A stretch of DNA of 64,000 nt from NCBI GenBank assembly GCA_951640195.1, contig OX621169.1, positions 62,001 to 126,000 on the forward strand, given 5' to 3'. The position numbers and the translations under genes were made by a program. Shown piece after piece: positions 28,822-64,000 of this stretch; within the stretch, counting starts at the first letter, position 1; each line of letters starts with the position of its first letter. The stretch comes from Porpolomopsis calyptriformis. Lineage: Eukaryota; Basidiomycota; Agaricomycetes; Agaricales; Hygrophoraceae. The notes beneath the pieces are model-generated. The model was not told the DNA's origin. It ran no database searches and saw only the letters and a program-made list of their open reading frames with translations.

Positions 28822-28835
28822 CAGGGCTCATAACC
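28822..28835 (-). other. CopA primer-binding site (half-tRNA type)
   Basis: Abutting the 5' LTR, the minus strand reads GGTTATGAGCCCTG, complementary to CAGGGCTCATAACC, the anticodon stem-loop of eukaryotic initiator tRNA-Met (CAU anticodon inside). Drosophila copia primes from a cleaved half of this tRNA with a similar site. Copy 2 has the identical site at 32033-32046. Confidence 0.65.
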
Positions 28836-29035
28836 TATCAAGGCTGGAAGCTACTGCCTTAATAACCACACCTGGTGTCAAGCTTCACTGTCAATACTAA
28901 GGAGCAGTGAGCTTGACACCAGAGACTTTGGACGCATTTTGACCAAATAAGAACAAACAAATCAGCCACAACTTCGGACTAGTACAAACCAGTTACTGCT
29001 CTATGCAGAGGAGATTATCACATCCTAACAGCTAG

Positions 29036-30339: not shown

Positions 30340-31200
30340 TGGTTTTACTTTAGGTGCTCTATCCTAGATGATAATAAGAGTCTCAGGTTCTAGTTATTGT
30401 AAGTAGCTAACAAGGAATCAGACTTAAAGTCTAAGTATGACTAACTACAAGTTTATATACTAACTATGCTACTATGGATGAGTCAGTGTTATATGAGGGG
30501 ATATATACAGTGAGTAAGAGATAAACATGATAGTGACTCAGAGCATATGAAAAGATAAAACATAAGTTATCAGAAATGAAAAGTATCCTACTTAGGTTAA
30601 ATGAGAAAGATAAGGCAATAGGGAATCCTAAGCAAGATAAGTAAACTCCAACTAAAAGAGACAATGACAAACATAGACAAGCAAAGGAAAATTTGAGACT
30701 ATAATATACACCTCACTTTTCAAGAAATTTGATCCAAATTTCAGATTTAGGTGATATTAGCCATTCCAGTCTCAGAGGCCTGGGTCAGGATTTCCTTGGT
30801 AGTCAGAGCCTCCTTGATGACTACTGAGGGGGGAGCAATGGGTTTGTCTTCCAAAGTTGGTAGGATAGGGGTGGCAGTAGTAGTAACATTGTTGTTATCT
30901 AGATACTCTAAATTGAGATTGATAGGATGTTCAACTAAACTCCTGTACTCAATCAGAGTCTCTCTTGTTGTGAGATCTTGATAAGTCAAGCCTTTGACAG
31001 CTTAACAATCTTCCAACATTTGGGAAAGAAGGGTACAGGTGGTAATATTTCCACAATCGATCCAGTTTCACTTCTTTTCATTCTAGAGCCTCCAAAACTT
31101 AAGCTCTATGGTGTCATAGTTTCTCTTCCAGCCATCAGTATGCTTCTTCTTAGTAGCCAGCTCCACTTTTACTATAGCTAATTCTGTATACAGCTCACAA
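30340..31200 (-). pseudogene. Possible 3' end of another gypsy family: ORF3-like relic plus LTR-like sequence
   Basis: 30440-30720 resembles the Gyp2 LTR in layout (ACTATGGATGAGTCA, AGACAAGCAAAGG, a TCACTTTTTCAAG stretch comparable to the Gyp2 CACCTCCACAAAAAGG junction). To its right a minus-strand frame reads ELYTELAIVKVELATKKKHT, GWKRNYDTIELKFWRL, stops, then TYQDLTTRETLIEYRSLVEH and ends IT at TAA near 30747. The order (coiled-coil-like ORF beside an LTR) matches Gyp2 ORF3, but identity is too low to be sure. Confidence 0.3.
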
Positions 31201-31704
31201 TTCTAGGTACTAATACTATTTAAGTAGACTGTGAGATAGGAAATGGTGACATTAGGATCTTCAGGGGAAGGAGTTAATTTATTACTGAGAAAATCAGCAG
31301 CAGTGGTACAAGGTTGTTGGTATAATTACCTAGAAACAGGAACAGGAATAGAAGGACCAGGGTAGGGGAACAGGTGCAAAGGGAAGGGATTCATTCTTAA
31401 TAGCAGGTAGCAACTTGTTATTCAGGTTTGGGGGTATAAGTGGTAAGCATTTTCGAAAGTCCAGTTCTATAATCACTGCGGAAATGAAAAAATAGTTTGA
31501 TTCGGAGATAGTTAGTAACAGACACACCCGAACATAGCATGACTCTAGGTATTAAGATGATTGGTATCAGGAAAGATAATAAAGTGACATTCTAATTGGA
31601 TGAAATCCTAACAAGGCCTGTGCATGTGGTCATAGTCCTGCTATTGCTTCTCCCATCTAATCAGGCCTCTAGCTTGTTTGTTACATGTCACTATATCGCA
31701 ACTT
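31201..31704. other. Unassigned DNA between the two CopA elements
   Basis: A minus-strand open stretch (31527-31330, beginning MCLLLTISESNYFF) shows no recognisable motif. The sequence before 31710 ends AGAAT, which is not repeated after copy 2. Confidence 0.4.
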
Positions 31705-31709
31705 AGAAT

Positions 31710-32032
31710 TGTTAGGATGTGATGATCTCCTCTGCATAGAGCAGTAACTGGTTTGTACCAGTCCGAAGTTGTGGCTGATTTGTTTGTTCTTATTTGGTCA
31801 AAAATGCGTCCAAAGTCTCTGGTGTCAAGCTCACTGCTCCTTAGTATTGACAGTGAAGCTTGACACCAGGTTAAGTCACTCCCTGTATTTATATCACCAT
31901 ATTATTAGTATTGACAGTGAAGCTTGACACCAGGTTAGTCACTCCCTGTATTTATATCACCATATTATTAGTATTGACAGTGAATCTTGACACCAGGTGT
32001 AGTTCTTAAGGCAGTAGCTTCCAGCCTTGATA
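31710..32032 (+). repeat. CopA LTR with three 64-bp internal repeats
   Basis: The unit contains AGTATTGACAGTGAAGCTTG, CACCAGGTTAGTCACTCCC and TGTATTTATATCACC. LTR lengths 195, 259, 323, 258 and 258 in this window equal one, two, three, two and two units. The repeat includes a TATA-like TATTTATA, so promoter dosage may vary. Confidence 0.85.
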
Positions 32033-33170
32033 GGTTATGAGCCCTGCTGCAAATTTTGCCTAAACTCACCCCCTATTGTGTCTGACAGCTCCTGCATACT
32101 CCTGGACCATTACAACCACTCTCCAGACCTCTCACCAGCACCACTGATATAAATCACCCTGGTCCTCACTCAATTTTCACTCCCTGACTTCGAAACTTTT
32201 GGGACCATTTTCGGACGCTCCCTTCTGCGCCTCCGCCGATTTACATGTTGCTGGCTTCATTTCCATTGCCAGGACATCCCAATCAATTGTCCACATCACC
32301 ATTCATTATCTGTGATAGGCCTACCCATCCCAATCCATCCCAGTGACTGCCAGCTCATTAGTGGGCACTTGTGGACACTTGTAGGTGTTTGTTATCAACT
32401 CCATTCACTGTGGTCATCTGTAACAGCCCCACCACTCCAAACCACCATTCTGTGATCTGACACATCATTCCTGTGCCCACCAACTCAAATCGCACCGAAT
32501 CGCTCCGAAATTGCTTGTGGACGTTAAAGGCCACGTCCGAATCGGGTTCCCTCGCTTATACGCTTACTGCATTCGCGGATCATCCAGGAGTGCTCCATCA
32601 TTATTCACCACTCCTATCTACCTCCCAATCATTCCCATTCGTGTTCCATCACTTCCATCGCTCCCAGGATGTTGTAATCACTTCAAGACACTCTAGGACG
32701 TGCCCTCTGTGCTCTGGCAAAAATTTGGACTCTTGGGACCTCTCTGGACTCTAGCACTTGATCATTCATCAGTCTGTGCTGTGGCTGTCACTGTGCACAT
32801 TGGTTTATTGAAAGGAGATTAGAACAAAGTGAAGTGCAGTGAAGTGCTACCTCCCTGGGCTCTCTTATCAGAGTGTTACCCCAGTTGCTATTTGGCTTGG
32901 TTCACACCAGTCAGCACCTCTCTCTGCACGCAGTGTTGTAGGGAGATTGGGTTGGCGGGTTTACAGTTGCCTCCCCTTCCAATTCATTGGAAGTAGCTCC
33001 ATTATCAACTACCACTGCTAGCACTGATTTCATCGACTTGAGAATAAGCTGGTAGTGTGTGTGAGACCTACAGAAGACTGATTTACCAACCTCACCCTAT
33101 CCCTGCCATCCACTACCCCTTCATACTCCATAATCCATTTGTCACCTACATACACACCATTATCATCATC

Positions 33171-36100
33171 ATGTCAGCCTCCACAAGTGAATCAAAGAGA
33201 ACATTCCCCTGCCTCACTCCCACTAATTTGGGGCAGTGGGCTGACAACATGGAGGCTTACCTTCACACCAAAGACCTCTGGGAGTATGTGGATGGATCTC
33301 TGCCTAGGCCTACTGCTGCTGACCCCGTCAAACCTACCCCTGCTGAAATCACTGAGCTTAGGGATTGGAACCAGAAATCTGGAAGAGCTAGTGGAGAGAT
33401 ATGGCTTGCCATTGAGGACAACCAGAAGGTGCATGTGAAGGATGACAAAGCTGACCCTGCAGCAATGTGGGCTAAGTTAGAGGCTGTCCATCTGCAGAAG
33501 AGACCAGGAACGCGCTTCAATGCCTATGATGCACTGTTCAGTATTAGGAAGGATGATGCTGAAACCCTGCCTGCCTTAATGGCTAGAGCTGATAAAGCTC
33601 TGCAGGATATCAAAGCTCTCCGTCCATCTAACTTCACACTAGACAAACCTGGATAAAGATCTTCTCTGTATGACCCTCATCCGTGCCCTTCCTGCCGAAT
33701 ACAACAACTTTGCATCCTCCCTCCTACTCATTGACTCCCTTGATATCGATAAACTCCAATCTGCCTTCCAGAATGAAGAGAGCCAGCGGCTTGCCAGAAA
33801 TGTCTCCTCCTCATCTCCCAGCCTTGCCTACCAATCATCATCATCTGCTCTGCTTTGCTCCTTCTGTGGCAAAACCAACCACACAGAGGACAAGTGCTTC
33901 AAGAAGCAGAAGGCCTCTGCTGATGCTAAACAGCAGACTGCTCAATGGCAAGGGCGTGGTCGAGGTGCCAGGGGTAGAGGCAACAAGCCTGCTGCAAAAG
34001 AAGCATCTGAAGATACCACCAATGCCAATACTGCCACCATTGAATTTGCTGGTCATGCAAGTGCTCTCTCTTCATCCCATCGCTCCCTATGGCTCAAGTC
34101 TCAATCCTGTGCTGACTGGAACACTGATACAGGTGCTACATCACATATGACCCCTCACAAACACTTGTTTCACTCATATTCTCCCCATGTCACTGCTATT
34201 CACCTAGCTGACCATTCAACAATCTACTCTGCTGGTATTGGTTCAGTTGAGTTCCAACCAGTCATAGATGGCATACCCAAGTGACCAGTTGTATTTCATG
34301 ATGTACTCCATGTCCCTGATCTTGGCAGTAATCTACTTTCACTCTTCCACCTTACTCGTGTTAAACAATATACCATTTCAATCCAACAATCTCGAGTTGA
34401 GTTCTATTATCACAATGAACTCCATTTCACAGCCTCCATCAATGAGCGCAATATTGGCTATCTTGATGGCAAGATCATTGTTCCTCAGTCAGCTCAGTCA
34501 GCTCAGTCAACCCTTCCCTTGGATCTTACTCTGTGGCATCAGTGTTGCTCTCACCTTAACTTTGGTGATTTGAAGCATATGCACCTCCATAAGCTTGTCT
34601 CAGGCATGGTCATCCAGTCCAACTCACCTCCAGACCCTATCTGTGAGCCATGCATCTTTGGAAAGCAGCACCGTCATAATATCCCTAAGACAGCCTCTCG
34701 TCGAACCTCTCTTCTTGCACTTGTCCACACAGACTTAAAGGGCCCTCTCCCTGTTCAGACACCAGAGGGATACCATTATTGGCAACCCTTCATTGATGAC
34801 AAGTCAAGGTTCATGGTGATTGCTTTCCTGAGACGTAAAACAGAAGCTCTTGTTGCATTCAAGCAATTCAAGGCTTATGCTGAGACCAAGCTTGGAAGAC
34901 GCCTTCAGATGTCTAGGGATGATAAAGGAGGTGAATTCATCAGTAGGGAGTTCAACCAGTTCTGTGCAGACCATGGTATTATGCGTCAGCACACTGAGCC
35001 AAATGAACCTCATCAAAATGGAGTAGCTGAGCGCGCAAATGAAGATATTGCTGCTGCTGCCACTGCACTCCTGGTTCAGGCTAAACTCCCTCCCTCCTTT
35101 TGGGCACTTGCTGTCTCTACCTATGTGCATACCAGGAACAGGACACCCACTTCTGCTTTGAATGGAGACACTCCATATTTCCACTGGAAAGGGAAGAAAC
35201 CAGACATCTCTTACTTCCGTATCTTTGGCTGCCTTGCCTATGTGCTAGTGCGCCAAGAGAAAAGGAAAGCACTCCAACCTCATTCTAGGAAGTGCATCTT
35301 TGTTGGTTACCCTGATGGTGTGAAAGCGTGGAAGTTCTGGGACCCAGTGGCTAAGAAGATCGTTATCAGCAGTCATGCTGTATTTGATGAAAGGTGCTTC
35401 CCTGGCAACTCTACAGTGGCTATAAATCTGGTCTCTTCCCCTTCCATATTACCTGATCACTCTGCACCCTCTGAACCATCTGTGGTGGTGCTGGATCAAG
35501 GGGGAGATGATGACCATAGTAATGATACAGCACCACATCCAGTACTACCTTTGCCACCAATTGCACCCATACCTGGTCCCAATCTACCTCCTGCTGTCCC
35601 AGTTCCTTCTGCATATAAGGCACCTGCCCCTGATCCACCTGGACCTTCAAGACGTCAAAACCCTCCTTGTGCTAGTCGTCCTCAAGGCTCCCTTAATGAA
35701 ACTCTACTTGGTCGTCAATCCTCTGTGCCTCCTCAATCCACTCCCTCTCCAACTCCAAATAGTGCTTCTCCACCTGTTTCTACTCCTGACCCACTTGCAA
35801 TGTCACCTCCTGCTTCTCACCAAATGCATTCACCTCCATTATCTCCAGTCAATGAGTCTAGCAGTGATGATGAACTCCTGCTCAAGGACCCTAGTGATGG
35901 TGAACTTGAGTATGCAGATGCTATCCAATCTGGATTTGAATATCTGTGCAGTGGTCAAGAGACTGATTACCTTACTCTGGACCAAGCAGTAGAGTATGCC
36001 TTCAACTCTTCTCAGCATGCATTCAAGACAGCTACTCATGATGGTGAACCCAACACATACCATGAGGCAATGCAGCGCCCCCCTGAAGAGAAGGAAGAAT

Positions 36101-37614
36101 GGCACAAGGCTGCTTTATATGAGATCCAAAAACTTATTGAAAATGGCACCTTTGAACTTGTACAACTCCCACCTGGCTGCAAAGCTATTGGCAGCCGATG
36201 GGTGTTCAAGGTCAAAAGGAAAGCTGATGGATCCATTGAGCGCTATAGAGGCAGAGTGGTGGCCCAAGGATTTGCCCAGAGACCTGGATTTGACTATACT
36301 GAGACCTTTGCTCCTACTCCAAAGTGGGCTTCACTCCGAGCTATCCTGGCATTGGCTGCACTTGAAGACCTTGAATTAGAAAGTCTTGATATCTCTTCAG
36401 CTTACCTCAATGGTGAACTTGAAGAAGAGGTCTATATGCGCTAGCCAGAAGGCTTTGTTGAGAAGGGCAATCACTGGGTCTGGCACTTGCTCAAATCTAT
36501 CTATGGCTTAAAGCAGGCTGGCAGGTGTTGGCACAAGAAACTCAATGAGGTCTTTGAGAAGATGGGCTTCAAGAGGATCACCTGTGAACACAGTATCTGG
36601 ATCTACAAGAGGGATGATGTGCGCATCATAGTGCCAGTCTTTATTGATGATATGACTATTGCTGCAAAGTCCACTGCAGAGATTGCTCATGTCAAGGATG
36701 AACTTAGGAAGTACTTCCAACTACGTGATCTTGGGACTACCTCATAGCTACTGGGTGTTGAAATCACTCGGAATCGTTCTGAACATTCATTATCATTGTC
36801 TCAGCACCAATATATCCTTGACTTGCTTAAATGCTTTAACCTCTCTGATTGCAACCCAGTTGGTACCCCACTTGATCCTGGCATCAAACTCAGCACATCC
36901 ATGTCTCCCACTTCCTCTAAAGAGATTGAAGAAATGCGGTCCATTCCATACCTCCAAGCTATTGGTTCATTAATGTACTTGGCCACAGCTACTCGACCAG
37001 ATATCTCTTACACTGTTGGTGTCTTAGCCCGCTTCAGCAAGAACCCAGGCATGCAGCATTGGAAAGCTGTCAAACATCTCTTCCGTTACCTCAAAGGCTC
37101 TCTTGACTTCAAATTAACCTACTCACCACTTTCCAACCCATCTGAAATATTCACCACTTATACTGATGCTGACCATGCTGGCAATCCTGATAATGGGCAT
37201 TCCACTGGAGGCTATATAGTCAAGATGGGTACTGGTGCTATCAGTTGGTCTAGTTGACTCCAGGCTATAGTTGCACTATCCACCACTGAAGCAGAGTATA
37301 TTGCAGCTACTGCAGCCAGTCAAGAAATCCTATGGTTGAGAAATCTGTTCACTGAACTTGGCTACCAATTCACATCCCCTTCTACTCTGTTCATTGATAA
37401 CCAATCTGCCTTATCTGTTGCCAAAAATCCAGAACACCATGGACGTATGAAGCATCTGGACTTGCGCTTTTACTGGTTGAGGAATGAAGTGGAGAAGGGA
37501 ACCATCAAGTTGATCCACCTAAGGACAGATGCCATGCCTGCAGATATCTTGACCAAGGCCTTGAGCAAAGTGAAGGTGTTGGAGATGTTAGAAAGGTTGG
37601 GATTGAAGAAGTAG
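33171..37614 (+). pseudogene. CopA copy 2 gag-pol polyprotein (broken)
   Basis: Same architecture as copy 1: gag from MSASTSESKRTF, CCHC knuckle CSFCGKTNHTEDKC, protease DTGATSHM, integrase HQCCSHLNFGDL/CEPCIFGKQ and DDKGGEF, RT FIDDMTIAAKS, RNase H LSTTEAEY. Lesions: one inserted base at ~33648 (LDKPG), CGA-to-TGA 34282-34284, CAG-to-TAG 36442-36444 (MR*PEGF), TGG-to-TAG 36745-36747 (GTTS*LLG) and TGA 37255-37257 (ISWSS*). Only the last is shared with copy 1. Total length 4444 nt equals the ancestral 4443 plus one. The 641-codon stretch 34519-36444 covering integrase and half of RT is intact. Confidence 0.93.
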
Positions 37615-37897
37615 CAGAGTTGTCTCATCAAGGGGGAGTTGTTAGGATGTGATGATCTCCTCTGCATAGAGCAGTACTGGTTTGTACCAGTCCGAAGTTG
37701 TGGCTGATTTGTTTGTTCTTATTTGGTCAAAAATGCGTCCAAAGTCTCTGGTGTCAAGCTCACTGCTTCTTAGTATTGACAGTGAAGCTTGACACCAGGT
37801 TAGTCACTCCCTGTATTTATATCACCATATTATTAGTATTGACAGTGAAGCTTGACACCAGGTGTGGCTCTTAAGGCAGTAGCTTCCAGCCTTGATA

Positions 37898-38285
37898 TCC
37901 AGACCCTATCTGTGAGCCATGCATCTTTGGAAAGCAGCACCATCATAATATTCCTAAGATTGCCTCTCACTGAACCTCTCTTCTTGCACTTATCTACACA
38001 GACTTAAAAGGCCCTCTCCCTGTTCAGTATCATGGCTGGAAGCTACTGCCTTAAGAACCACACCTGGTGTTAAGCTTCACTGTCAATACTAATAATATGG
38101 TAATATAAATACAGGGAGTAACTAACCTGGTGTTAAGCTTCACTGTTAATACTAAGGAACAGTGAGCTTGACACCAGAGACTTTGGACGCATTTTTGACC
38201 AAATAAGAACAAACAAATCAGCCACAACTTCAGACTGGTATAAACCAGTACTGCTCTATACAGAGGAGATCATCACATTCTAACA
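37898..38285 (-). mobile_element. Rearranged CopA tail: internal fragment plus inverted LTR
   Basis: 37898-38027 is a piece of CopA pol in the plus orientation (CCAGACCCTATCTGTGAGCC onward, equal to about 34630-34760). 38028-38285 is a complete 258-bp CopA LTR in minus orientation (TATCATGG...TTCTAACA). The arrangement 3' LTR, pol fragment, inverted LTR is not a normal element. Confidence 0.85.
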
Positions 38286-40308: not shown

Positions 40309-41001
40309 CTAGGTCGCGCCATCATAAACTGGGGGTTGAAGCAGGTGTCCATCTGGGTCAAACCAGTGGTAACGGCCATCCAACTCCCGGGCACGTCGCA
40401 ACCAAGTTTCAGCCAGCTCCCTACACATCACAGCATTCTCCTCCAGGTTAAGGATCCTTTCGTACTTGGCATCCATCATCGAGCGGTACCTGTTCCGGGC
40501 AGTATAGAGTCGGTCGGCAACGCGATGGATACGGTGCGAGATGGGGTCTTCAGGGATAGTGGGGGTGGTGACGTCGGATTCGTCCTGGTCCAGTATAACT
40601 ATCAAAAGTTGGCGCCCAACTTGGTATGCCTCCACCTAATCTTCGAGTTGATTCTTCTTGTCGTTAAAGTTGCTGTCCTTGTTGAACGTGTACCAGTGGC
40701 GGTCGTAGTTGAGTTCGCATCGACGTGCTCCAGAAATAAATGGGATGTAGGTCTTGGGGCACCCAGATAGGTGCTCGACCTTGGCAAAGGGGAGCCCTCA
40801 GTAGTTACGATTTCGTCCCGGCTTGTCAATGGTATCGGTACGTCGTCTCGGCTTCTTGAACTGTCGGGAAACTAAGACACTGTCGGACGAGGAAGAGGAG
40901 GAAGAAGAATCGGGGGGGAGGTTGGAGGTAGAAGCAATGGGGTTCCCTCGGGGTGGACGCCTCCCAGTCGACTTGCAGGCGTAACGAACCTCGCGGGGCA
41001 T
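40309..41001 (-). pseudogene. Gyp2 ORF3: third ORF with histone-H3-tail-like start
   Basis: 231 codons in one frame from ATG 41001, 113 bp after the pol stop, ending VYDGAT. Two premature stops: TGA after NRNY and TAG after NQLED. N-terminus MPREVRYACKSTGRRPPR aligns to H3 A1-R17 with A7, K9, S10, T11, G12, P16 and R17 conserved; CGC-to-TGC would explain C at the R8 position and GGG-to-AGG the R at G13. A serine-rich stretch follows (~residue 32), then PKTYIPFISGARRCELNYD, and a charged helical C-terminus (RNRYRSMMDAKYERILNLEE, ETWLRRARELDGRY). No known enzyme domain. Homologous to Gyp3 ORF3 at 63781. Confidence 0.72.
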
Positions 41002-41114: not shown

Positions 41115-44100
41115 TTAAATCGCCGCTTAAATAGATTTTTCATAATTCATTAAGACATCTTTTGCGTGTTTGAGGTTCCATCATGGTTCCCAGGTGGCTG
41201 CCTCTATCGGGTAGCCTTTCCACTTGATTAGATATTGTCGGTTTCGTTTTCCTGGGGTGTGATTTAAGATACGTTCCACTTCATACTCGGGCTCTCCTTC
41301 GATCACATCTGGAGGTGGTCGGAGATTGTCATCTTCTCCGATCAGGGGGTGGAGATCGAGATTCTCTTCTAGAGCCTTGAGTAGCGAAACGTGAAACACG
41401 GGATGAATCCTCCATGACAGCGGTAGCTTTAGTCGGTAAGCCACAGGCGATACTTGTTTTAGAATTATAAAAGGTCTGAGCCGACGGACATCCAGTTTCT
41501 TTGCGGGCCAGCCAGTTTTCAAATTCTTGGCATCAAGCCAGACCCTTTGTCCTTCGTAAAACGTGGGTTCCTTTTGACGTTTTCGATTGGCATAGAGCTT
41601 CATTGAGTTAGCGGTCTTTTGAAGAGACTCTTCAGTGTTCTCTCTAGCTCTAGTAAGCTGCACATAAAACTCGTTGGCATCGGGATTTGAGGTTTGGGTT
41701 GGAACTGATAAGGGGGTGTGAGGGTGTCGGCTATATTTAAGCCAGAAGGGGGATTAGTGAGTGGAGGAATGTTCTCGGTTGTTATAAGTGAACTCCGCTG
41801 GAGCTAACCAATCTTTCCAATCGTCTTGCATGAAGTTAGTGTAGAGCCGTACATACTGCTCTAACTCTTGATTGGTTCGTTCGGTTTGTCCGTCTGTTTG
41901 GGGGTGATAGGCGGTAGAAAGCCCAGAAGTGGTTCCTAGGAGTTCGTTCAATGACGTAGCGAATTTTGATGAGAATTGGGTTCCTCGATCGGTGATGATC
42001 TTCTCTGGCCATCCATGGTGTTTCCAGACATGTTCTTGAAACAGCGCAGCAGTTCCTTTAGCAGATAGGTTTCCAGTTGTTGGGATGAAGTGAGCTCGTT
42101 TGGTGAATCTGTCCACCACAACTAGAATAGCATCAAATCCTTTTGAATTAGGGAGTTCCACGATTAGATCAGCAGTGATCTGTTGCCATGGTTTAGTAGG
42201 AGGGGGTAACGGTTGGAGAAGTCCAGTGGGTTTCTGTGGATAAACCTTGGTCTGTTGACAAGCAAGGCAGGACTTCACATAATTGGTGATATCTTGTGGG
42301 GCACCTTCCCATGTATAATTACGGAGGAGCAGTTCCTTCGTCTTCTCAATGCCGGGATGGCCACCAGTGGGTGTGTCGTGGGTCAATCGAATAATTTCTG
42401 TGTGCAAAGATACGTCCTTTGGCACAACTATACGATCTCCAGCATCGCGCACAATGCCATCTACGTGGGTGTATCCGGAAGAGGGATCTTCAATTTTGGC
42501 CATGATCTTGAGGGGTAGGGGGGAATGAAAACAAAGCTTGGATAAAAAGTTGGGGGATGATAAACTGATAATCGCATTGATGAAAAGCGCATTGACAAAA
42601 AGTTCTTTTGGCAGAAGGACCTTGTCCTCCACCTCCTCATAAGACTCCAGGTAATGATCTGGACGCTTGGAGAGTCTATCAGCCTTATTCTTGATTCTAG
42701 GCTGGTAGCTGATTCTGAACCAAAAGCGAGCTAAAAATTCAGACCATCTAGCCTGGCGCCTGGAGAGTTGATGACTGGTCATGAAATATTGGAGGGACTG
42801 GTTATCAGTCTTGATCATAATAGGCTGTCGTGTCCCTTGTAGAAGGTATCTCCATTCATTTAAGGCAGATATGATGGCCAAAAGCTCTTGGTCATGGGTG
42901 GGGTAATTTCGTTCAGCTGGGAGGAGGGTCTTGGAGTAGAAGCCAATGGGATGCCAATCTTCTTCGTCATTCTCTTTCTGGGTCAAGACTGCACCCAGTG
43001 CAACACCAGAAGCATCCGTCTCCAGAAGGTAAGGAAGGTCTGGCTTCGGGGTCCTCAAAACAGGAGCAGAGGTAAGCGCATTCTTGAGGGTATCAAAAGC
43101 ACGTTGTTGCTTAGGGGTCCAAATCCATTCTTGATCCTTTCGTAGGAGCTCATTAAGAGGACGAGCAATTAGGGAGTAATCCTTGATAAACCTTCGCCAA
43201 AAGTTAGCAGTGCCAAGGAAGGATTGGAGATCTCGTTTCTTCTGGGGGATAGGCCAGGTTCTGATCACCTCAACCTTCTTGGGGTTAATGGCAATGTGGC
43301 CTTTAGAGATCATCATCCCCAGATAAATCACTTCCTTTTTCTCGAACTGGCACTTGACAGGTTTGCAGGACAGTTGATTCTTCTCCATGATCTCTAGAGT
43401 TCGTTCTGTCCAATAGGTGAGTTCAGTGAGGTCCTTTCCCATGATCAGGATATCGTCAATATAGATATGGACCTGCTTGGAATCGATAACCTCTTTGAAG
43501 AGAACGTCAATCATTCGTTGGAAGGAGGCAGGCGAGTTTCGCATTCCAAAGAACATAACGGTGGGCTCAAACAGCCCTCGTCGAGTGTTAAAGGCTCCTT
43601 TCCATTTGTCTCCTTCTTTGATACGAATATTGTTAAAGCCCCATCGGATATCCATGACTGTGAACAGTTCCGCTTCTAATAACTTGGTCTGTTGAATAAT
43701 CTCAGAGATGAGAGGTAAGGGATAGGTGTCTGGGATTGTGTGAGCATTCAGATAGTGATAGTCTTAGATTGGACGCAGTCCAGCATCTTGTCCTTGGGCA
43801 TTAACTTCTTCACCTTTGGCAGCAAAGAAGAACAAGGCAGCTTGTTTGGAGTTTGATCGTCGTATTCGTCCACTTGCAAGTTGTTCCTCCAGGAACTCAT
43901 TCAACTTCCCCTGTTCGTACTCAGTGAGTTTGTACACCTTTCCGATCTTGGGTCTAAAGGTAGGTTCGAGATCGATCGCATGGTCAAATTCTGGTTGTCG
44001 TGGGGGAAGTTCATCAAAGGTGGTCTTCATAAACACCTTCTAGTGCCTCCAGTATTTCTTCGGCACATACTTCTTCATATCTTCCTCCACGGTAGTGGGT

Positions 44101-53300: not shown

Positions 53301-55650
53301 ATGAGATGCATCCCTCTGTTTACCATCTTCCTGTTCATCTTCAGGATCAACAACAAGTTTATTATAATCCTAATGATCTTGCTGAGGATGTTTTAGAATG
53401 TAAAAGTGCTAAGAAGACACAGCTTTCAGAGTAGTTCACAGCTAATAGAACTATTCCTGAAGCTAAGAATTATCTCTACTTAGACTTTCCCCAAGACTTT
53501 GTTTGGGATAAAAATGCTTTAAAATGGAAGACCAGGAAACAGGACTATGCTATTGGCAGAATGATGTTTGTCAAGCCTACAGAAGGGGAACATTTCTATC
53601 TCAGGACACTACTATCTGCAGTTAAAGGTGCTATAGATTGGAAGGACCTTTGTACTTTTAATAGAATTGAGTTTCCAACTTATAAGGCTGCCTATAATGC
53701 TAGAGGGATGTTGGAGGATAATGGAGAGTGGCATCAGTGTCTTGAAGAAGCTGGTGGGATTCAACTTGGGTATCAACTTTGCTTTCTTTTTGCTACCCTT
53801 CTTTTCCACTGTAACCCTACAGAGCTAGCAGAATTGTGGAACACCCATAAGCATAATATTTGTGATGATCTCAAATATAAAATTATTGCTCTTGGAAATC
53901 CTGATTATATTAATCCCACTGATGATCAAATTTATGACTATGGACTACATCTTATTAATATTGATCTATCAAAATTTGGAAAATCCCTTTCTAACTTCCC
54001 TGATATGCCTCTTCCCCAAATCCAATGGGATGATATTATTCCTACTAATTCCCTTCTTCATCAACATCTTGCCTATGATGAGTTTCAACTTTTGATTGAT
54101 GTTAACCACTACAAATCAACTTTTAATATGCACTGCCTTTGATGCTATTATGAAGTCTGTTTATAATAACAAGGGAGACACCTTCTTTCTTTATAGTGCT
54201 GGTGGTTGTGGTAAAACCTATGTCTGTATTGCTATTGCTTCTGCTGTTTGTGCAGAAAAGAAGGTGGCTCTTTGTGTTGCTTTATCAGGAATTGCATCCC
54301 TTCTTTTACCTGGAGGTCATACAGCTCACTCCCAGTTTAAAATCCCTATTCCTATTCTTGACAACTCTGTTTACAACATCCTTAAAGGCAGTGATCTTCA
54401 TACTGTTATTTTACAAACAGGGATTATTATCTGGGATGAGGCTCCAATGCAGCATTGTTATGCTTTTAAGGCCTTAGATAGAACTTTACAGGATTTAACA
54501 GATAGACCTCAGCCATTTGGTGGTATAACTGTTCTTTTTGGTAGTGATTTCTACCAAATTCTACCTGTTATCTTTAAAGGTTCAAGGGAGCAGATTGTTA
54601 GAGCTAGCCTTCAGCGATCCAGGTTGTGGAGATCTATTCATATCCTTCATCTAACAGAAAATTGACATCTTGACCAAACCCTTGAAAGTGATGCCTTTAC
54701 TAAATTGCTTCTAAAAGTTGGTTCTGGTCAACTCCTATCCCCAATCACCCTTCCTGCTTCTATGCAGCTTAAAAACAATACCATTACTGGGTTAGTCAAT
54801 GTAATATACCCTGCTTTAGCAGAAGGAAATAAATCAGATGACTACTTCCTTAATCACACCATTCTCTGTTGCAAGAATGATACTATTGATGAAATCAATA
54901 GCTTCACACTTGATATGTTACCAGGTGCAACATCTATTCATTATAGTGTGGACAAGGTTATAGGTGTAGACCCAGTCTATACCATTGAATTTCTTAATTC
55001 CCAAAATGGATCTGGCCTTCCCCTTGCTCACCTTGCATTAAAACAAGGATGCCCACTTATGCTTCTTCGCAACCTTGATGTTACAAATGGACTGTACAAT
55101 GGAACTCAAATGGTTTTGATGAACATTAGATCACGTGTCCTCCAATGTCGTATTCTTGGTGGAACTCATGCTGGGAAAATGGTTTTTATCCCTAGAATGA
55201 CCCTTGAACCAAATTCTGAAAACCTTTCTATCCCCCTTTCCCATCACCAATTCCCTGTTCGCCTTGCATTTGCCATGACTATCAATAAATCTCAAGGTCA
55301 ATCAGTTCAACATGTTGGGTTGGATTTATGCATCCCTGTCTTTTTTTATAGTCAACTTTATGTTGCTCTCTCCCAATACACATCCAGTCAGAGGATCAAA
55401 GTATTGTTCTCTCCAAATTCACAAGCAGCTAAAGCTCTCAATGTTGTATATCCTGAGATTTTAAGAAATTTGGTGAATATCAATAATTGGTATATTTCTA
55501 CTTACACATCTCAATGCTCAGTACTCACCTTATTCTCCAGATATTAATAAAAGGTTTATAGAGGTTGAGAGTAAAAATGTTGATAGTAATCAACAATTGG
55601 CAAGTGTTGCACTTATTATACAACACAAAGTACTTATTTAAATGGCTTCT
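50400..55650 (+). mobile_element. Helitron (rolling-circle transposon), decayed
   Basis: One Rep/helicase coding unit, with a possible 5' exon (CEQLFVDNGCCYINWAFRN, YKVDEHGIEYMNWNF, donor GTGAGT at ~50541). Candidate 3' end features: stem TGTTGAT/ATCAACA with loop AGTA (55578-55595), stem GTGTTG/CAACAC (55604-55626) and CTAG at ~55668. The A|T target rule was not satisfied at that CTAG, so exact ends are unsettled. Confidence 0.75.
51300..55547 (+). pseudogene. Helitron Rep-helicase (stops and one frameshift)
   Basis: N-terminal zinc-finger-like HMDVECSHCGALHF (~51330), NAAFAFTSFRAKLDVSVLDG, NPNLDPLIMFNLQDMLL. Rep domain: TQWCYTIYCLHPR, AQHCGKADIFLTITANPN, HUH motif NLPHNHILIW (~52750), two-tyrosine motif KYIHKYIYKG (~53160). 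Helicase: Walker A SAGGCGKTY (~54200), Walker B IIWDEAPM (~54430), LAFAMTINKSQGQS (~55265), YVALSQYTS (~55355; family usually R where Q stands). Stops: LFHGG*LLQQ (52240, R position), SELF*IQRN, ANPN*PEI*, TQLSE*FTAN, LTEN*. A frameshift lies near 54110. Ends VLTLFSRY at 55547. Confidence 0.9.
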
Positions 55651-57683: not shown

Positions 57684-58128
57684 ACTGAACAAAGGTCTGC
57701 TGAATGACTAGCAGATGCAGAACCAAAAGGTTCTGCAGGGAAGACATCCAGACAGGATATTATAGAAACCAACAAACCAAAAGGTGTTCAGACACGAACA
57801 CAAAGAAAATAAAAGAGAGTACCCCTACTGGGTCTAATGAAAAGATGCTACTGAGTGTAGCTCAAATTGTTCAACCAAATGAAAGGACCAAAATGTCCCT
57901 AACAAATGAGGACAGACCTCGCCTTTGAGCCAAATGGATCGAAGCATGCCAGGATATTATGCACAGAGTACCCAAGGAATTGCCTCCAGTGTGTGGTGTT
58001 AATCACCATATACCTCTTATCAATGAAGATAAGAAGTACAGTTACTGCCTGCCCAGATGTCTGGACTTGCTAAAGCCTCAGCTTATAGCAAAGATTGCGT
58101 AGTATATGCACACCGGATGGTGGGAATT
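57684..58128 (+). pseudogene. Gyp4 start of reverse transcriptase, cut by Gyp3
   Basis: Across frames: KGVQTRTQRK, then WIEACQDIMHRVPKELPPV, GVNHHIPLINEDKKYSYCLP and RCLDLLKPQLIAKIA*YMHTG, WWEF, the block that precedes RT in this gypsy clade. The sequence stops at GWWEF where the Gyp3 LTR begins (TGTCACGG, 58129). Confidence 0.75.
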
Positions 58129-58496
58129 TGTCACGGACACTTTTTTCTTTTTCCTTTTAGTCATACTTGATCAGTCTCCATTCCGTTTATCCTTCTGCTT
58201 TACCATTTTATATATAGACTGATCACATGTACCTTCCTTCCGACTCTTTCACGAGTCACATTCCGTTTCCGCTATTGTTTTCGTGACTCTTCACTAGTCA
58301 CATTCCGGATTCCACTTTGTAATCGTACATACGACTGACTCATGGCGACTCAGGTAGTTAGTATATAAAGCCTGATCTTTAGTCAGTAGGATAAGTTCGA
58401 TTCCTAGTTAGCTCCCCCACTCTTTAGTCGAATTCCATTTCCTCATCAGCCCCTCAAACGCGAGAAGTAAAACCCTTCGACTACCGAATCATAACA
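58129..58496 (+). mobile_element. Gyp3 5' LTR (368 bp)
   Basis: TGTCACGGACAC to GAATCATAACA. The end is set by comparison with Gyp2: after the LTR, Gyp3 reads AGAATCGAACTTCCTTCTTG and Gyp2 AGAAACAGACTTCCTTCTTG. TATA box TATATAAA at 58362-58369. GAGTCACATTCCG is duplicated within it. Confidence 0.75.
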
Positions 58497-58671
58497 AGAA
58501 TCGAACTTCCTTCTTGCGCATCAAACCACTTCCACTCTGGATCCTGCCGAAGACTTAACAAGGTCAATCTTCTCATCTGCAGATTCAGATACTCCCTTTC
58601 AACCAATAGTATTCCAAACCCCCGCACAATCCATCATCCCCCTTTCCCCCTCATCATCATCACTGACATCA

Positions 58672-60096
58672 ATGTCTCAACAAGAGTACGAAGCCGATCA
58701 ATCCGTTCCCGCACCAGGACCCAGCAACATCCCCCCTACCATTCAAGAAGAAGAAGAAGACGTCGTCCCATTTAACATGGAACAAGAGCTCAGAGATTTA
58801 AGAGCACAAATCGACCAGTTCCGCGGTTGGTACTACAACGAAGTCGACGTCAATGACGAGCTCCGAAAGGAGCTGAAAGCTCTCAAAGAAAGTCGACACG
58901 AAGAATCTGAACCAACCACCCCTCCCCCACGACGACGATCTGTACTTCGGGGACCTGGACTTTCCCCCTCGAATCCTTTCGTTTACCCCACAAGAAGAAC
59001 CCAATCCGTCCAACCTCCATCCCAACCAACCTTTCCCACTCAACTACCCACCCAGACGACTGCTCCCCCCGCATTACCAGCCCCCACCAAAATCAAGATC
59101 GCCGATCCGACCAAGTATGATGGAACCTCCGAGAAGCTTGAAGACTTCATTCATCAATGTCGACTCAACTTTGTGGTCAAAGACTACAACGACAAACAGA
59201 AGATCGTCTATATGCTCTCCTACCTCGGTGACGGCAATCCACGGGCCTGGGGACGACTGTTCACAGAAGGAGTTGACAGGACGAGGAATTTTGTATGGGA
59301 CTACGCAACATTTTTGGACGATTTTAGGGAAGCTTTCGGAAGGATCAACCCCGCGGCGAAGGCACGGATCGAGCTAGAGAAAGTGAAGATGACAGGAACG
59401 ATAGAAGACTACAACCTTCGGTTCATGCAACACGCAGCAAGAACTGAGTACAACGAGACCGCTCTACTTCGGTTTTACAAAGCCGGACTCCCCCAGCCGA
59501 TCCGAACGCGGATCTACTCGATGGATAATATGCCGTCGACTTTGCTGGACTGGACGACGAAAGCGGCCCAGTTCGAAGAACAGTACCAGGAACAACGAGC
59601 CGAACAAGCATTGTGGTCAAGTCGAGACCAAAAAGGAAAGAAGTCTGAAGCCAAATCGAGTCCACGAGGAAACCCTTCCCGCTCCATCACTACCACCACC
59701 ACTTCATCCCCGATCAAACAAGAATCGAGAGAAGCCTCTCTCAAGACAGCGAAACGAGACAACTCCTCCATCACTTGCTACAATTGTGGCAAAAAGGGAC
59801 ATTATGCCAACGAATGTCGAAGCCCACGTGCTGAAGACGTTCCGGCACGTCAAGAATCCTCAAACTCTACTCGAGGAAAAGGAGGAAATCGCGGTCGAGG
59901 CAAAGGACGGAATGTCCGAACGATCAATCGGGTCGATACAGAAGAATTGGAAGCGTGGATAGAGGAAGTATCGGAGGACGACGAAAAGGAAAAAAGGATG
60001 GCAAAGGATGACTTGAAGGATATGGGAATCGCAAATTGGAACAAGGAGAGACGGGCTGCGCTAGCTCGAGCGTTAAAGGAGCAAAAGGATTTTTAG
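58672..60096 (+). CDS. Gyp3 gag (capsid/nucleocapsid)
   Basis: 474 codons from ATG 58672 (MSQQEYEADQSVPAPGP) to TAG 60094-60096. N-terminal acidic/coiled-coil region (ELRDLRAQIDQFRGWY), proline-rich linker, capsid core (IADPTKYDGTSEKLEDFIHQ; MLSYLGDGNPRAWGRLF; ALLRFYKAGLPQPIRTRIYS), zinc knuckle CYNCGKKGHYANEC, arginine/glycine-rich stretch (GKGGNRGRGKGRN), acidic segment, basic C-terminus. It packages RNA into virus-like particles. No defects. The 5' region 58497-58671 is its short leader. Confidence 0.95.
   Translation: MSQQEYEADQSVPAPGPSNIPPTIQEEEEDVVPFNMEQELRDLRAQIDQFRGWYYNEVDVNDELRKELKALKESRHEESEPTTPPPRRRSVLRGPGLSPSNPFVYPTRRTQSVQPPSQPTFPTQLPTQTTAPPALPAPTKIKIADPTKYDGTSEKLEDFIHQCRLNFVVKDYNDKQKIVYMLSYLGDGNPRAWGRLFTEGVDRTRNFVWDYATFLDDFREAFGRINPAAKARIELEKVKMTGTIEDYNLRFMQHAARTEYNETALLRFYKAGLPQPIRTRIYSMDNMPSTLLDWTTKAAQFEEQYQEQRAEQALWSSRDQKGKKSEAKSSPRGNPSRSITTTTTSSPIKQESREASLKTAKRDNSSITCYNCGKKGHYANECRSPRAEDVPARQESSNSTRGKGGNRGRGKGRNVRTINRVDTEELEAWIEEVSEDDEKEKRMAKDDLKDMGIANWNKERRAALARALKEQKDF
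60087..60093 (+). promoter_or_regulatory. Gyp3 gag-pol -1 frameshift site
   Basis: Gag ends AAG GAT TTT TAG; a -1 slip on G GAT TTT leads to TTA GTC CGG, the pol frame (GFLVRPSAK). Gyp2 has G GGT TTT at the same place and pol likewise starts GFL. The Gyp3 heptamer deviates from X XXY YYZ at the third base. Confidence 0.6.
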
Positions 60097-63000
60097 TCCG
60101 GCCAAGTGCTAAAAGCCCGAGCACTTTGGCTGTGTCCCACGTATGTGTACCACCATCTATGAAAAGTTTTCGTTTTCTTGGCACACTTGAACAGGGCGAA
60201 GGCGCTCTCGAATTCTATCTTTGGATCACGAGTGCCGACAATCTTCGACGAGTGGCTATCATAGCACTCATTGACTCTGGCGCCTCAGGGAATTTTATTG
60301 ACGAAGCATTCGTTCGTCAAATGGAGATATCGACCTATCTGTTGGATGAGGTTATACCGGTACGAAACGCTGATGGTTCCGAGAACCGAGGAGGTCCCAT
60401 CACGCACGATACAGACCTGTTTATTGAGGCACCAGATCTATCCTTTCGAGAACGAATCCGGTTGGAGGTCACCAACTTAGGAAAAAAGCAACAGGTCATC
60501 CTCGGCTTCCCATGGCTTTTGCGACACAACCCCACCATCAATTGGACAAAAGGCACCTTAACTTTTGCGTCTGGTGACACGCTGTTCAGTAGTATGCGAG
60601 TCGGAGTGTTGCCCCCACAGGAAGAACTCTACGTCTTCGATTCGAGTCTGAAACATGACTCCTTTATCCATTTGGTCGGAGTTGACCACTCCCGACCAGT
60701 TTCCATCGAGGAGGATATCAAATCCTTTATTCCCAGTCGTTATCACAATTTCTGGCGTGTTTTTCATACCGCAGAATTCGACAAGCTTCCTCCTCGACGT
60801 TCTTTTGATCATGCGATCAACCTCTACCCGAACACCAAGTTTCAAGTCGGAAAACTCTATCCCCTTTCCCCCTATGAACAGGTAGAACTTAATAAGTTTA
60901 TTGACGAAAATCTCAGAACAGGTCGGATACGTCCATCGAAATCACCGCAAGCTGCTCCCTTCTTCTTTGCGAAAAAGGCTGAAGAGATCAATGCTAAAGG
61001 TCTCAGTGCTGGTCTACGTCCCATCCAGGACTATCGCTACATCAACTCAAAAACCATTCCTGATCGTTACCCCCTTCCCCTTCTATCGGAAATCCTCCAA
61101 GTACCGAAGCTTGCTACTGCTTCACTCTTTACAGTCATCGATATTCGATGGGGATTTAACAACATACGACTCAAGGAAGGTGACGAATGGAAAGCAGCTT
61201 TCATCACCAATCGAGGACTCTTCGAACCGACCGTTATGTTCTTTGGACTACGGAACTCCCCAGCATCTTTCCAACGAATGATAGACGTTCTCTTTAAAAC
61301 CGTTCTGGACTCTGGCTGTGTCCACATTTATATTGACGACATTCTCATCATGGGCGACACCCCCGAAGAAATCCGCCACTGGACTGACGAAACCCTTAAG
61401 CTCATGGAGAAGAATCAACTATCCGCCAAACCCGTCAAATGCCAAATGGAGAAGACCTCTGTTACATACCTTGGTACAATCATCAGTAAAGGTCAACTCG
61501 CTATCAATCCAAAAAAGGTAGACGCCATCATCAATTGGCCGACGCCCCAAAAGCTGCGAGACCTCCAGTCCTTCCTTGGCACCACCAACTTCTGGCGTCG
61601 TTACATCAAAAGTTTCTCCTCAGTCGTTCGTCCCCTCTGTGGCCTTTTGCGGAAAGACCAGCCTTGGGATTGGTCTCCCTTGTGTCAAAAAGCCTTTGGG
61701 CAACTCAAACATCTCGTCACTACAGCCCCTGTCCTTCTTACCCCGTGGCCAGACCTTCCTTACCTCTTGGAGACTGATGCCTCAGATTTCGGTATTGGCG
61801 CAGTCTTATCTCAGAAACACGACAACGGTTGGCACCCCGTTGGCTTTTTCTCAAAGTCTCTACTCCCTGCCGAGTACAACTATCCTACCCATGATCTGGA
61901 GATGCTTGCAATCGTCACTTCCCTCAAATATTGGCGTTATCTTTTAGAGGGCGCAAGGGATACTGTGTTGATAAAGACGGACAATTTAGCGCTCAAGTAT
62001 TTTATGCAGAACAGATCCCTCTCCAGACGACAAGCACGTTGGATGGAATTCTTAGGCAGATTCGACTTCAAAATCGAGTATTCCCCTGGAGTCAAAAACA
62101 AAGCCGATGGACTCTCCCGCCGACCCGACCACCGTCATACAGAAAAAGAAGAATTAGAAGGCCAAGCCCTCCTCCCCCCTGAACGTTTCATCAATGCTAT
62201 CATTTCCATGTCCGAACCTTCCTTTATGTCAAGACTTCGCTTCCCCGACTTCAACGAAATCCCAGAGGACATTCGCATCAAGTTATCCGATCCCTCTTCC
62301 GGCTACTCCTTCACTGACGGAATTGTGAGAGATGCAGGAGATCGTATTGTCGTGCCAGCAGACGTATTGCTACGCACAGAGATAATTCGATTGACCCACT
62401 CCCTGCCCCATGGAGGCCATCCCGGAATCGAGAAGACACGTGAGCTTGTGTTGCGGAACTACACCTGGAGTAGTGCTGCCCCTGACATCCGTGTATTCGT
62501 ATCATCCTGTCCGACCTGCCAACAAGTCAAGCTCTATCCTTCAAAGCCTGCAGGTCTCCTGGAACCCATTCCCCCTTCGTCTCGACCTTGGAAAGAAATC
62601 ACCGCCAATCTAATCGTGGAACTCCCCCAATCATCTGGCTACGATGCTGTCTTAGTCGTTGTCGACCGCTTCACCAAGCGCGCTCACTTTATTCCGACGA
62701 CATCAAATATTTCTGCAGAAGGAGTCGCAAAACTCTTCAGGGACAATGTATGGAAACACCACGGCTGGCCAAAGAAGATCATAACCGATCGAGGAACTCA
62801 GTTCGCTTCCAAATTTGCGAAAGCTCTCAACACTCATTTGGGAATCATCTCCGGTCTATCTACCGCTTATCACCCCCAAACTGATGGTCAAACGGAACGT
62901 ACCAATCAAGAACTCGAACAATACCTTCGTTTGTATACAAACTTTATGCAAGACGATTGGTCCAACTGGCTATCCTCAGCTGAATTCGCTTACAATAACC

Positions 63001-63656
63001 GACAGCACTCCTCGACGAAACACACTCCCTTTTACCTTGATACTGGCCAACATCCCTTCGTCCCACCTGTCCCTACGGCCCCTACTTCCAACCCCGCAGC
63101 AGATACCTTCCACGATCATCTCACAGAAGCCTGTGAAGAAGCCACAAAAGCTCTAGAAACAGCGGCCGAAACCATGAAACGCTTCGCAGATCGCAAACGG
63201 AAAGATACCCAACTCCAAATAGGTCAATTTGTTTATCTTGATACTCGTAACTTAAAAACAGGTCGTCCAACCCTCAAACTTGATGTCCGACGCACCGGAC
63301 CGTTCAAAATTCTAGAAAAGATCGGAAAAGTCTCTTATCGCCTGGCCCTCCCCTTATCATGGAAAATACACGACGTCTTTCACGTTTCACTCCTGAGACC
63401 CGCTAACATTAACTCCGATCTCCACCCAGAGGAAGTAGATGATAATCTCCGTCCACCTCCGGATGTCATTCAAGAGAAAGAAGAATATGAGGTCGAACAA
63501 ATTCTCCAACATCACGGGTCCACCCGACGTCGTACGTATTTGGTCAAATGGGTCGGCTATCCCATTGAAGAAGCAACCTGGGAACCGAAGAAGAATCTCC
63601 TCCATGCGAAAGAACGAATTCTAGAATACGAACAATCAATTCAAACGGCGACCTGA
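60093..63656 (+). CDS. Gyp3 pol: protease, RT, RNase H, integrase, chromodomain
   Basis: 1187 codons after the shift, fully open to TGA 63654-63656. Protease ALIDSGASGNFIDE; RT TVIDIRWGFNNIRLKEGD, FFGLRNSPASFQRM, IYIDDILIMGD; RNase H LLETDASDFGIGAVLSQ with TDNLALKYF and NKADGLSRRPD; integrase zinc module HPGIEKTRELVLRN with SCPTCQQ, core VVVDRFTKRAHF, ITDRGTQFASKF, HPQTDGQTERTNQE; chromodomain YEVEQIL, TYLVKWVGYP, EATWEP. The first catalytic aspartate of the integrase triad is replaced: ITANLIVELP here against ITADLIVELP in Gyp2 (AAT at ~62608). The second D and the E are present. Integration by its own enzyme should therefore fail. Confidence 0.96.
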   Translation, partial: LVRPSAKSPSTLAVSHVCVPPSMKSFRFLGTLEQGEGALEFYLWITSADNLRRVAIIALIDSGASGNFIDEAFVRQMEISTYLLDEVIPVRNADGSENRGGPITHDTDLFIEAPDLSFRERIRLEVTNLGKKQQVILGFPWLLRHNPTINWTKGTLTFASGDTLFSSMRVGVLPPQEELYVFDSSLKHDSFIHLVGVDHSRPVSIEEDIKSFIPSRYHNFWRVFHTAEFDKLPPRRSFDHAINLYPNTKFQVGKLYPLSPYEQVELNKFIDENLRTGRIRPSKSPQAAPFFFAKKAEEINAKGLSAGLRPIQDYRYINSKTIPDRYPLPLLSEILQVPKLATASLFTVIDIRWGFNNIRLKEGDEWKAAFITNRGLFEPTVMFFGLRNSPASFQRMIDVLFKTVLDSGCVHIYIDDILIMGDTPEEIRHWTDETLKLMEKNQLSAKPVKCQMEKTSVTYLGTIISKGQLAINPKKVDAIINWPTPQKLRDLQSFLGTTNFWRRYIKSFSSVVRPLCGLLRKDQPWDWSPLCQKAFGQLKHLVTTAPVLLTPWPDLPYLLETDASDFGIGAVLSQKHDNGWHPVGFFSKSLLPAEYNYPTHDLEMLAIVTSLKYWRYLLEGARDTVLIKTDNLALKYFMQNRSLSRRQARWMEFLGRFDFKIEYSPGVKNKADGLSRRPDHRHTEKEELEGQALLPPERFINAIISMSEPSFMSRLRFPDFNEIPEDIRIKLSDPSSGYSFTDGIVRDAGDRIVVPADVLLRTEIIRLTHSLPHGGHPGIEKTRELVLRNYTWSSAAPDIRVFVSSCPTCQQVKLYPSKPAGLLEPIPPSSRPWKEITANLIVELPQSSGYDAVLVVVDRFTKRAHFIPTTSNISAEGVAKLFRDNVWKHHGWPKKIITDRGTQFASKFAKALNTHLGIISGLSTAYHPQTDGQTERTNQELEQYLRLYTNFMQDDWSNWLSSAEFAYNNRQHSSTKHTPFYLDTGQHPFVPPVPTAPTSNPAADTFHDHLTEACEEATKALETAAETMKRFADRKRKDTQLQIGQFVYLDTRNLKTGRPTLKLDVRRTGPFKILEKIGKVSYRLALPLSWKIHDVFHVSLLRPANINSDLHPEEVDDNLRPPPDVIQEKEEYEVEQILQHHGSTRRRTYLVKWVGYPIEEATWEPKKNLLHAKERILEYEQSIQTAT

Positions 63657-63780
63657 TCACTCTTTCACGGTATCAACTCCCCTCGTTTATATTTTCACTT
63701 TTGTCACCTTTTCCAAACTCCGACTCTTCCTTATAATCTCTTTCGTCTCCGTCTTTCACTCTCAAGAAATCGATCTCGCT

Positions 63781-64000
63781 ATGCCCGCCGAACGCTCACA
63801 TCAAACTGCCCGCAAGTCTACTGGTGGTCGTCCACCCCGCACTCCTCGCATGTCCACTGGAGGGCAACCCCCTCGTCGCGCCCCCCCTCCGCTCGCTTCC
63901 ACCTCCTCCGCTTACGGTGAAGCCGAGCTCGCCGGACAACTCTGGCAGCACAACCGTCGCGCACGAAATCGAGACCTTCCCATATGGCCAGAGGAAATCG
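63781..64000 (+). CDS. Gyp3 ORF3 (partial): histone-H3-tail mimic
   Basis: Begins 125 bp after the pol stop and is open to the window edge (73 codons seen). The start is MPAERSHQTARKSTGGRPPR. Aligned from residue 4 to histone H3 residues 1-17 without gaps, 12 of 17 are identical (R2, Q5, T6, A7, R8, K9, S10, T11, G12, G13, P16, R17); K14 is R. A second, weaker copy follows (PRMSTGGQPPRRAPPP). The rest (GEAELAGQLWQHNRRARNRD) is unrelated to H3, so this is not a histone gene. Position and the PPRxxPxASTS stretch match Gyp2 ORF3. The mimic could attract H3-tail writers or readers, including the element's own chromodomain. Confidence 0.82.
   Translation, partial: MPAERSHQTARKSTGGRPPRTPRMSTGGQPPRRAPPPLASTSSAYGEAELAGQLWQHNRRARNRDLPIWPEEI

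Follow-up and report, generated by a model that had tools for sequence, protein, structure and literature searches.

What is the function of an open reading frame that follows the pol gene of a retrotransposon and opens like the tail of histone H3? This question is raised by ORF3 in the window, the whole stretch of 64,000 nucleotides that we analysed (G000:C7:62001-126000), which forms part of a host genome of 33.5 Mb in 17 contigs that was searched alongside it. Intron-containing H3 genes (by reading) and the chromoviruses in this genome point to a fungal host, probably a basidiomycete. A first-pass annotation had reported that the frame after pol begins at 63781 with MPAERSHQTARKSTGGRPPR, as we can affirm, and proposed that its protein could sequester silencing factors, target integration or tether the element's own particles.

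The element that carries ORF3 spans from window position 58129, where its 5' LTR begins (368 bp, 58129-58496, + strand, delimited by LTR comparison), to L009:1308 beyond the window end, where the 3' LTR is found (L009:941-1308). The LTRs have TG..CA ends (TGTCACGG..CATAACA), and since 1 of their 368 positions differs between the two and a direct repeat, the 5-bp target-site duplication GAATT (58124-58128 and, after the 3' LTR, L009:1309-1313), borders them on both sides, the insertion is young. The internal region comprises a gag open frame (stop to stop, 58495-60096, + strand) with a Ty3 capsid-like domain (PF19259) and a CCHC knuckle (PF00098), followed by a pol frame (60012-63656, + strand) in which Pfam recognises protease, reverse transcriptase (RT), RNase H, integrase and a C-terminal chromodomain. 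The PR-RT-RH-INT order, the chromodomain at the C-terminus of the integrase, the TG..CA LTRs and the 5-bp target-site duplication identify this element as a Ty3/Gypsy chromovirus. Elsewhere in the window, we observed by reading a set of open frames resembling a Helitron-type Pif1 helicase (53435-55547), located upstream of the gypsy element that received the chromovirus insertion. Further features are an array of diverged direct repeats with a spacing of about 139-149 bp at the window start (14-1873) and a large inverted repeat (22984-38285) with arms of 2910, 1679 and 699 nt, 97-98% complementarity and a 3-kb centre.

Pol and ORF3 are separated by a pyrimidine-rich leader of 124 nt (63657-63780, + strand) without any ATG, and the first ATG downstream of the pol stop is the one at 63781. 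The frame upstream of this ATG is open in many copies of the element, and we take 63781 as the start of ORF3 because three of them (L034, L035 and L060) carry a stop there. Extension past position 64000, as recommended in the first-pass annotation, delivered both the 3' LTR and the full ORF3 of 192 residues, whose first 73 codons lie in the window (63781-64000, + strand) and which runs on to L009:857 (G000:C7:126356), 356 bases beyond the window end. The remainder of the protein is not histone, in agreement with the earlier description: Pfam gave only sub-threshold coiled-coil-type matches, H3 matches among PDB sequences are confined to the ORF3 N-terminus (best E 0.084), and a histone fold is absent, with no histone domain in Pfam and only helices and disorder predicted. 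An AlphaFold2 model of ORF3 (9-row alignment, mean pLDDT 64, pTM 0.31) features a helix at residues 47-64, a long helix of high confidence at residues 80-139 and a low-confidence end, and residues 1-42 mostly have a pLDDT below 50. Based on this pattern of confidence, a disordered tail on a long coiled coil with a disordered end is the likely architecture of ORF3. We further note an acidic/aliphatic C-terminal end, PITIPDDGDISPVDIISLS (L009 about 770-857), which in our view resembles a SUMO-interacting motif.

The likeness to H3 resides in the predicted disordered tail. Residues 8-16, QTARKSTGG, reproduce H3 5-13 exactly, and an ungapped comparison of residues 4-20 with H3 1-17 gives 12 of 17 shared positions, both just as the first-pass annotation had counted. 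All other six-frame 17-mers of window positions 1-63700 reach at best 8/17 against H3 1-17, and the single case that does so belongs to a related tail, that of the F6 ORF3 found elsewhere in the window (see below). The H3 5-17-like segment, QTARKSTGGRPPR (residues 8-20; 63802-63840, + strand), includes lysine 12 as the equivalent of H3K9, which is the sole lysine in residues 1-88 and the only one kept among the H3 tail lysines, with H and R standing at the H3K4 and H3K14 places. Downstream follow residues 21-34 (63841-63882, + strand), which vary more freely among lineages and include a degenerate second unit without lysine, PRMSTGGQPPR; taken as GRPPRTPRMSTGGQPPR within residues 16-32, this unit matches H3 1-17 at 9/17 positions. 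The ARKS context of K9 is placed by the model in the low-confidence part of the protein that is predicted to be disordered. Because the ORF3 tail begins three residues further in than H3, readers of the free H3 N-terminus would not find their ligand mimicked.

The nucleotide pattern for QTARK[ST]TGG has 70 matches in the 33.5-Mb genome, 67 of them within copies of ORF3 (14 contigs) and three in host H3 genes, with S encoded at the [ST] place in 70/70; the reversed-pattern control has 0. We used nucleotide patterns because protein searches are weak for such short matches, as illustrated by a 41-residue H3 tail query that missed ORF3 entirely. A chance match can be rejected given 67 ORF3 copies against 0 control matches, and so can misassembly or contamination because these copies are spread over 14 contigs. 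Searching the genome with ORF3 itself gave 132 matches, among which some copies are split across two rows and the weakest rows are mostly of the distant F4 type (see below). Comparison of the N-termini of 94 loci, representing 93 distinct places (L120 repeats L003), revealed QTARKSTGG in 66 of the 93, and the 67th pattern place lies outside this set.

Intact ORF3 copies belong to three lineages, F1 (that of the window), F2 (about 90% identical) and F3 (77%; L086 and kin), and selection was assessed in five pairs of individual copies from one genome by tallying synonymous against amino-acid differences. Outside the motif, dN/dS is 0.08-0.15 across the five pairs, so ORF3 behaves as a working gene under purifying selection. 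Within the motif, dN = 0 in all five, with a dS over its nine codons of 0.32, 0.55 and 0.89 among F1, F2 (L033) and F3 and of 0.14 in two other F1-F2 pairs. Synonymous versus amino-acid differences in codons 8-20 number 5/0 for F1-F3, 6/0 for F2-F3 and 4/0, 1/0 and 1/0 for the three F1-F2 pairs; codons 21-34 of the F1-F3 pair have 3 synonymous and 8 amino-acid differences. Residues 1-7 and 21-34 vary between the lineages compared, whereas residues 8-16 do not. In a shuffle test, zero amino-acid change in codons 8-20 has a P of 0.0255 (F1-F3) and 0.0166 (F2-F3), two values that are not independent of each other, and of 0.27 and 0.22 in two F1-F2 pairs. Windows of 13 codons that are equally unchanged, with the motif's own counted, make up 4/180 (F1-F3), 3/180 (F2-F3) and 61/180 and 70/180 (F1-F2 pairs).

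A broader view is provided by codons 8-16 of 92 copies compared with the window copy (92 copies x 9 codons, gaps omitted), which yields 808 codon cells that share ancestry. Not a single amino-acid change in these cells falls outside the C-to-T/G-to-A class, and synonymous changes outside this class occur in 9.4%; the amino-acid changes within it (3.7%) look like post-insertion decay. This decay dominates old copies and is unable to change the meaning of the lysine codon AAG. Altogether, the motif residues appear to be kept by selection, with the shuffle test lending modest support for the motif alone. A test for purifying selection on the H3-matching positions, as advised in the first-pass annotation, gives dN = 0 in five pairs and modest shuffle values, all from within one genome; the opposite scenario of a match unique to this copy and free of selection is countered by the 67 copies and by the lack of amino-acid change between lineage representatives.

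Three related types of elements in the same genome show how far the mimic extends. F4 is a Gypsy element without chromodomain in pol whose ORF3 starts with MSTPYSAEAQ, has no motif and resembles ORF3 in its coil portion (residues 88-161 or so, at about 30-35% in most rows). F5 is a sister chromovirus with a chromodomain 71% identical to that of the window element; its ORF3 at the equivalent place (L130, one copy) starts with MPATRSTRSP, has an Arg/Ser/Pro tail without motif and matches ORF3 at 25% (E 5e-4 when the two sequences are compared alone and composition is left uncorrected). F6 is a chromovirus inside the window with two open pol pieces (41181-43763, - strand; with identities of 68.5% and 56% to pol of the ORF3 element described above), of which the second ends in a chromodomain scoring over the Pfam cut-off. 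The F6 ORF3 starts with MPREVRYACKSTGRRPPRG... (40801-41001, - strand), which is identical to the ORF3 N-terminus at 12/20 positions with ARKSTGG not intact, and its match to ORF3 has an E of 0.008 when compared in the same way. At window position 15308 (- strand), an older copy of the F6 type reads MPCEILYACKSTSRHLP and then a stop. An F6 search gave 120 matches in the genome, with some copies split, and the ARK[ST]TGG pattern (control 1 and 1) had no match in the genome beyond the 67 ORF3 copies and three H3 genes and none in F6. We therefore withdrew the notion that F6 shares the intact mimic, given that ARKSTGG is not intact in F6 copies; F6 seems to share the ORF3 tail by descent without an intact K9 context.

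The first-pass annotation had regarded related ORF3s without the H3-like residues as evidence against its proposal; such proteins do exist in F4 and F5, and F6 has a related tail in which ARKSTGG is not intact. The mimic is therefore a trait of one chromovirus family and not of chromovirus or Gypsy ORF3s generally in this genome. Motif and chromodomain do not co-occur one-to-one: the chromodomain does not require the motif, because F5 and F6 have chromodomains without an intact motif, and the motif is an accessory of one family, since F5 and F6 manage without it. In addition, a chimera exists in which an F3 piece composed of the pol end with the chromodomain and ORF3 sits inside an F4 element (e.g., L086); at L102, positions 3900-5093 are 79% like the window element, and the sequence to either side is of the F4 type at 99%. 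Based on the same match spacing, the chimera is probably also present at G000 C4, C5, C9, C11 and C12, and it appears amplified.

The chromodomain of the window element (pol residues 1159-1208; 63486-63635, + strand; PF00385) aligns with HP1 (PDB 1kna, E 2.9e-8), and its Y, W and Y fall on what we take to be the aromatic cage residues. It agrees with the earlier description as a C-terminal chromodomain with an intact aromatic cage, is HP1-like and may bind methylated H3K9. This cage-bearing domain and the H3K9-like tail are encoded by one and the same element. HP1-type chromodomains contact H3 5-10, and SUV39-type enzymes read about H3 8-12, two stretches that are presumably both covered by the conserved ORF3 segment. 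The host genome encodes a Pre-SET domain over the family cut-off; a search of it for the chromo shadow domain of HP1 had no match, with the search control equally silent.

We favor, with a probability of roughly 0.45, the reading that ORF3, a true third gene of this fungal Ty3/Gypsy chromovirus family, codes for a coiled-coil protein with a K9-methylatable docking tag for chromodomains. Once expressed, the coiled coil would probably self-associate and display a flexible N-terminal tail with QTARKSTGG, of which the single lysine (residue 12) may be methylated by a host enzyme of the SUV39/Clr4 type. The methylated tail would then form a docking site for chromodomains, with the element's own integrase chromodomain or a host HP1-type reader as the likeliest partner, and multivalent display on the coiled coil could offset weak binding at a single site. 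A benefit to the element is conjectural, as are the sequestering, targeting or tethering originally envisaged. A docking tag is favored because the kept segment covers the presumed footprints of readers and writers and because the host has a Pre-SET domain. Automethylated G9a/GLP motifs and small multi-tail proteins (for both, see below) also speak in its favor. If the tail works in this way, ligand and reader of a host silencing mark would both be encoded by one transposon. The evasion or exploitation of heterochromatin by elements could then be tested simply at the peptide level, and natural H3K9 substrates would be available from a new source.

The best-surviving rival, though an unlikely one, is that the tail constitutes a basic, disordered arm binding nucleic acids or the capsid, H3-like by descent or convergence and with no role for lysine modification. 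Its richness in Arg and Pro and its predicted disorder would fit such an arm, as would the tails of F5 (Arg/Ser/Pro, no motif), F6 (no ARKS) and F4 (also no motif). However, a generic basic arm would accept K/R swaps and a shuffled order, whereas the nine residues match exactly and differ in no amino acid between the lineages compared, next to variable residues 1-7 and 21-34.

Also improbable on balance is a decoy, in which many H3K9-like tails would titrate the H3K9 methyltransferase and HP1 of the host away from element chromatin to counteract silencing. Like the docking tag, this idea draws on the presumed writer and reader footprints included in the conserved segment, and it agrees with sponge-like proteins elsewhere that carry three or four tails each (see below) and with the capture of the segment spanning the chromodomain end and ORF3 by another Gypsy element, where several copies exist. 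Yet nucleosomal H3 is generally known to vastly outnumber element protein, and ORF3 has one intact tail next to a second unit without lysine.

We consider it very unlikely that the motif is a short stretch of host H3 mRNA or gene that was acquired by template switching and kept by inertia, with capture from host H3 as such being a faint possibility to which some nucleotide matches point. The 27 motif nucleotides of F1 are 25/27 identical to H3 gene L122 and those of F2 (copy L042 and like copies) 26/27 identical to H3 gene L125, and the best value over the three H3 genes is attained by random synonymous coding in 0.019 (F1) and 0.0026 (F2) of draws; furthermore, by reading, introns of the host H3 genes interrupt the G13 codon, and QTARKSTGG of L123 lies between two introns. 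On the other hand, none of the H3 genes is an unusually close match for F3 (23/27, P 0.29), the flanks are, by reading, without DNA similarity to H3, and dN = 0 in nine codons despite a dS of 0.32-0.89 (0.14 in two F1-F2 pairs) marks a conserved and not a drifting motif.

Least probable of all is a mimic of the centromeric H3 variant that would steer the element to centromeres, since H3 fits slightly better than the host CENP-A-like gene (11 vs 10 of 13 positions, by reading) and young copies are scattered over many contigs, even though this gene (TARKSSGGRAPRRS) shares with ORF3 an R at the K14 place. The CENP-A-like gene (L128, G000:C1 about 1282600, - strand) carries this sequence as a K9-like motif of its own in a long N-terminal tail.

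Mimicry of the H3 tail is already known from viruses and host regulators, and none of the matches listed in a title/abstract search of the literature concerned an H3-mimicking retrotransposon protein. Viral histone mimics tabulated in PMC10208167, whose text lacks "retrotransposon" and "transpos-", include influenza NS1 (ARSK), SARS-CoV-2 ORF8 (ARKS) and adenovirus VII, although the nuclear role of SARS-CoV-2 ORF8 has been disputed (PMC10833455). Like ORF3, these are proteins of a mobile agent with a short H3 N-tail motif; the viral motifs tabulated there are about four or five residues long (PMC10208167), in contrast to nine exact residues near the N-terminus, conserved in many copies and beside a chromodomain, for ORF3. 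Among host proteins, G9a and GLP automethylate H3-like motifs and thereby generate sites to which HP1 binds, as described in PMC9768651, which also covers non-histone substrates. They share with ORF3 an H3-like lysine context in a non-histone protein, but G9a/GLP are host enzymes acting on themselves and ORF3 belongs to a mobile element.

Drawings of fungal Gypsy LTR retrotransposons have included an extra ORF before, termed additional and without an assigned function (PMC2864245, section 5 and Figure 3 legend); the sections consulted give neither their sequence nor any histone likeness, making this a comparison by description only. The same sections report that the integrase chromodomain of chromoviruses targets heterochromatin via recognition of histone modifications and describe no element-encoded ligand of it, a part for which ORF3 is a candidate. 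Fungal LTR elements are also described in PMC3248453, in which a search for an additional or third ORF had no match.

Beyond this genome, a search of 5.8 billion proteins with ORF3 gave no relative at E 0.001 among 165 candidates. Searches of viral contigs with pol, ORF3 and the multi-tail proteins described below gave no relatives either. The QTARK[ST]TGG pattern matched three viral contigs, which we treated as background because their in-frame readings are QTARKTTGG (within a frame of 28 residues), QTASKSTGG and QTASKTTGG. The 13-residue pattern had no match in the prokaryote genomes searched. An alignment of nine ORF3 sequences found P0002 only (E 0.35, among 3781 candidates), a protein that matches ORF3 around the motif only and contains one unit 13/13 identical to ORF3 residues 8-20. 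With P0002 as query, we obtained four further proteins, P0003-P0006, with E-values to P0002 of 1.7e-5, 6.8e-3, 0.54 and 3.1; for the weaker ones, the alignments establish likeness for the repeated motif only. P0002 to P0006 comprise 3, 4, 4, 3 and 2 ARK-centred H3-like units, respectively, all without lysine at the K14 place, and Pfam detected no domain above threshold in 5/5. P0002-P0005 are similar to ORF3 in having the first unit near the N-terminus (within about 14 residues of the start) and many units ending in GGR[PA]P, but differ from it by their three or four units.

These multi-tail proteins suggest that the mimicry is wider than one element. Tentatively, and with more doubt than confidence, we propose that agaricomycetes possess a group of proteins, selfish or of selfish origin, with one to four ARKSTGG-centred mimics of the H3K9 tail in which K14 is replaced, and that such methylatable tails would capture chromodomains; the element described here would then combine tail and reader in a self-contained lock and key that depends on the writer. 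P0004 comes from Daedalea quercina (Polyporales), and the sources of P0002, P0003 and P0005 are labelled lgn or jgi with contigs of 1.2-4.1 kb that are taken to be metagenome assemblies; the only name given to any of the five proteins is "hypothetical protein".
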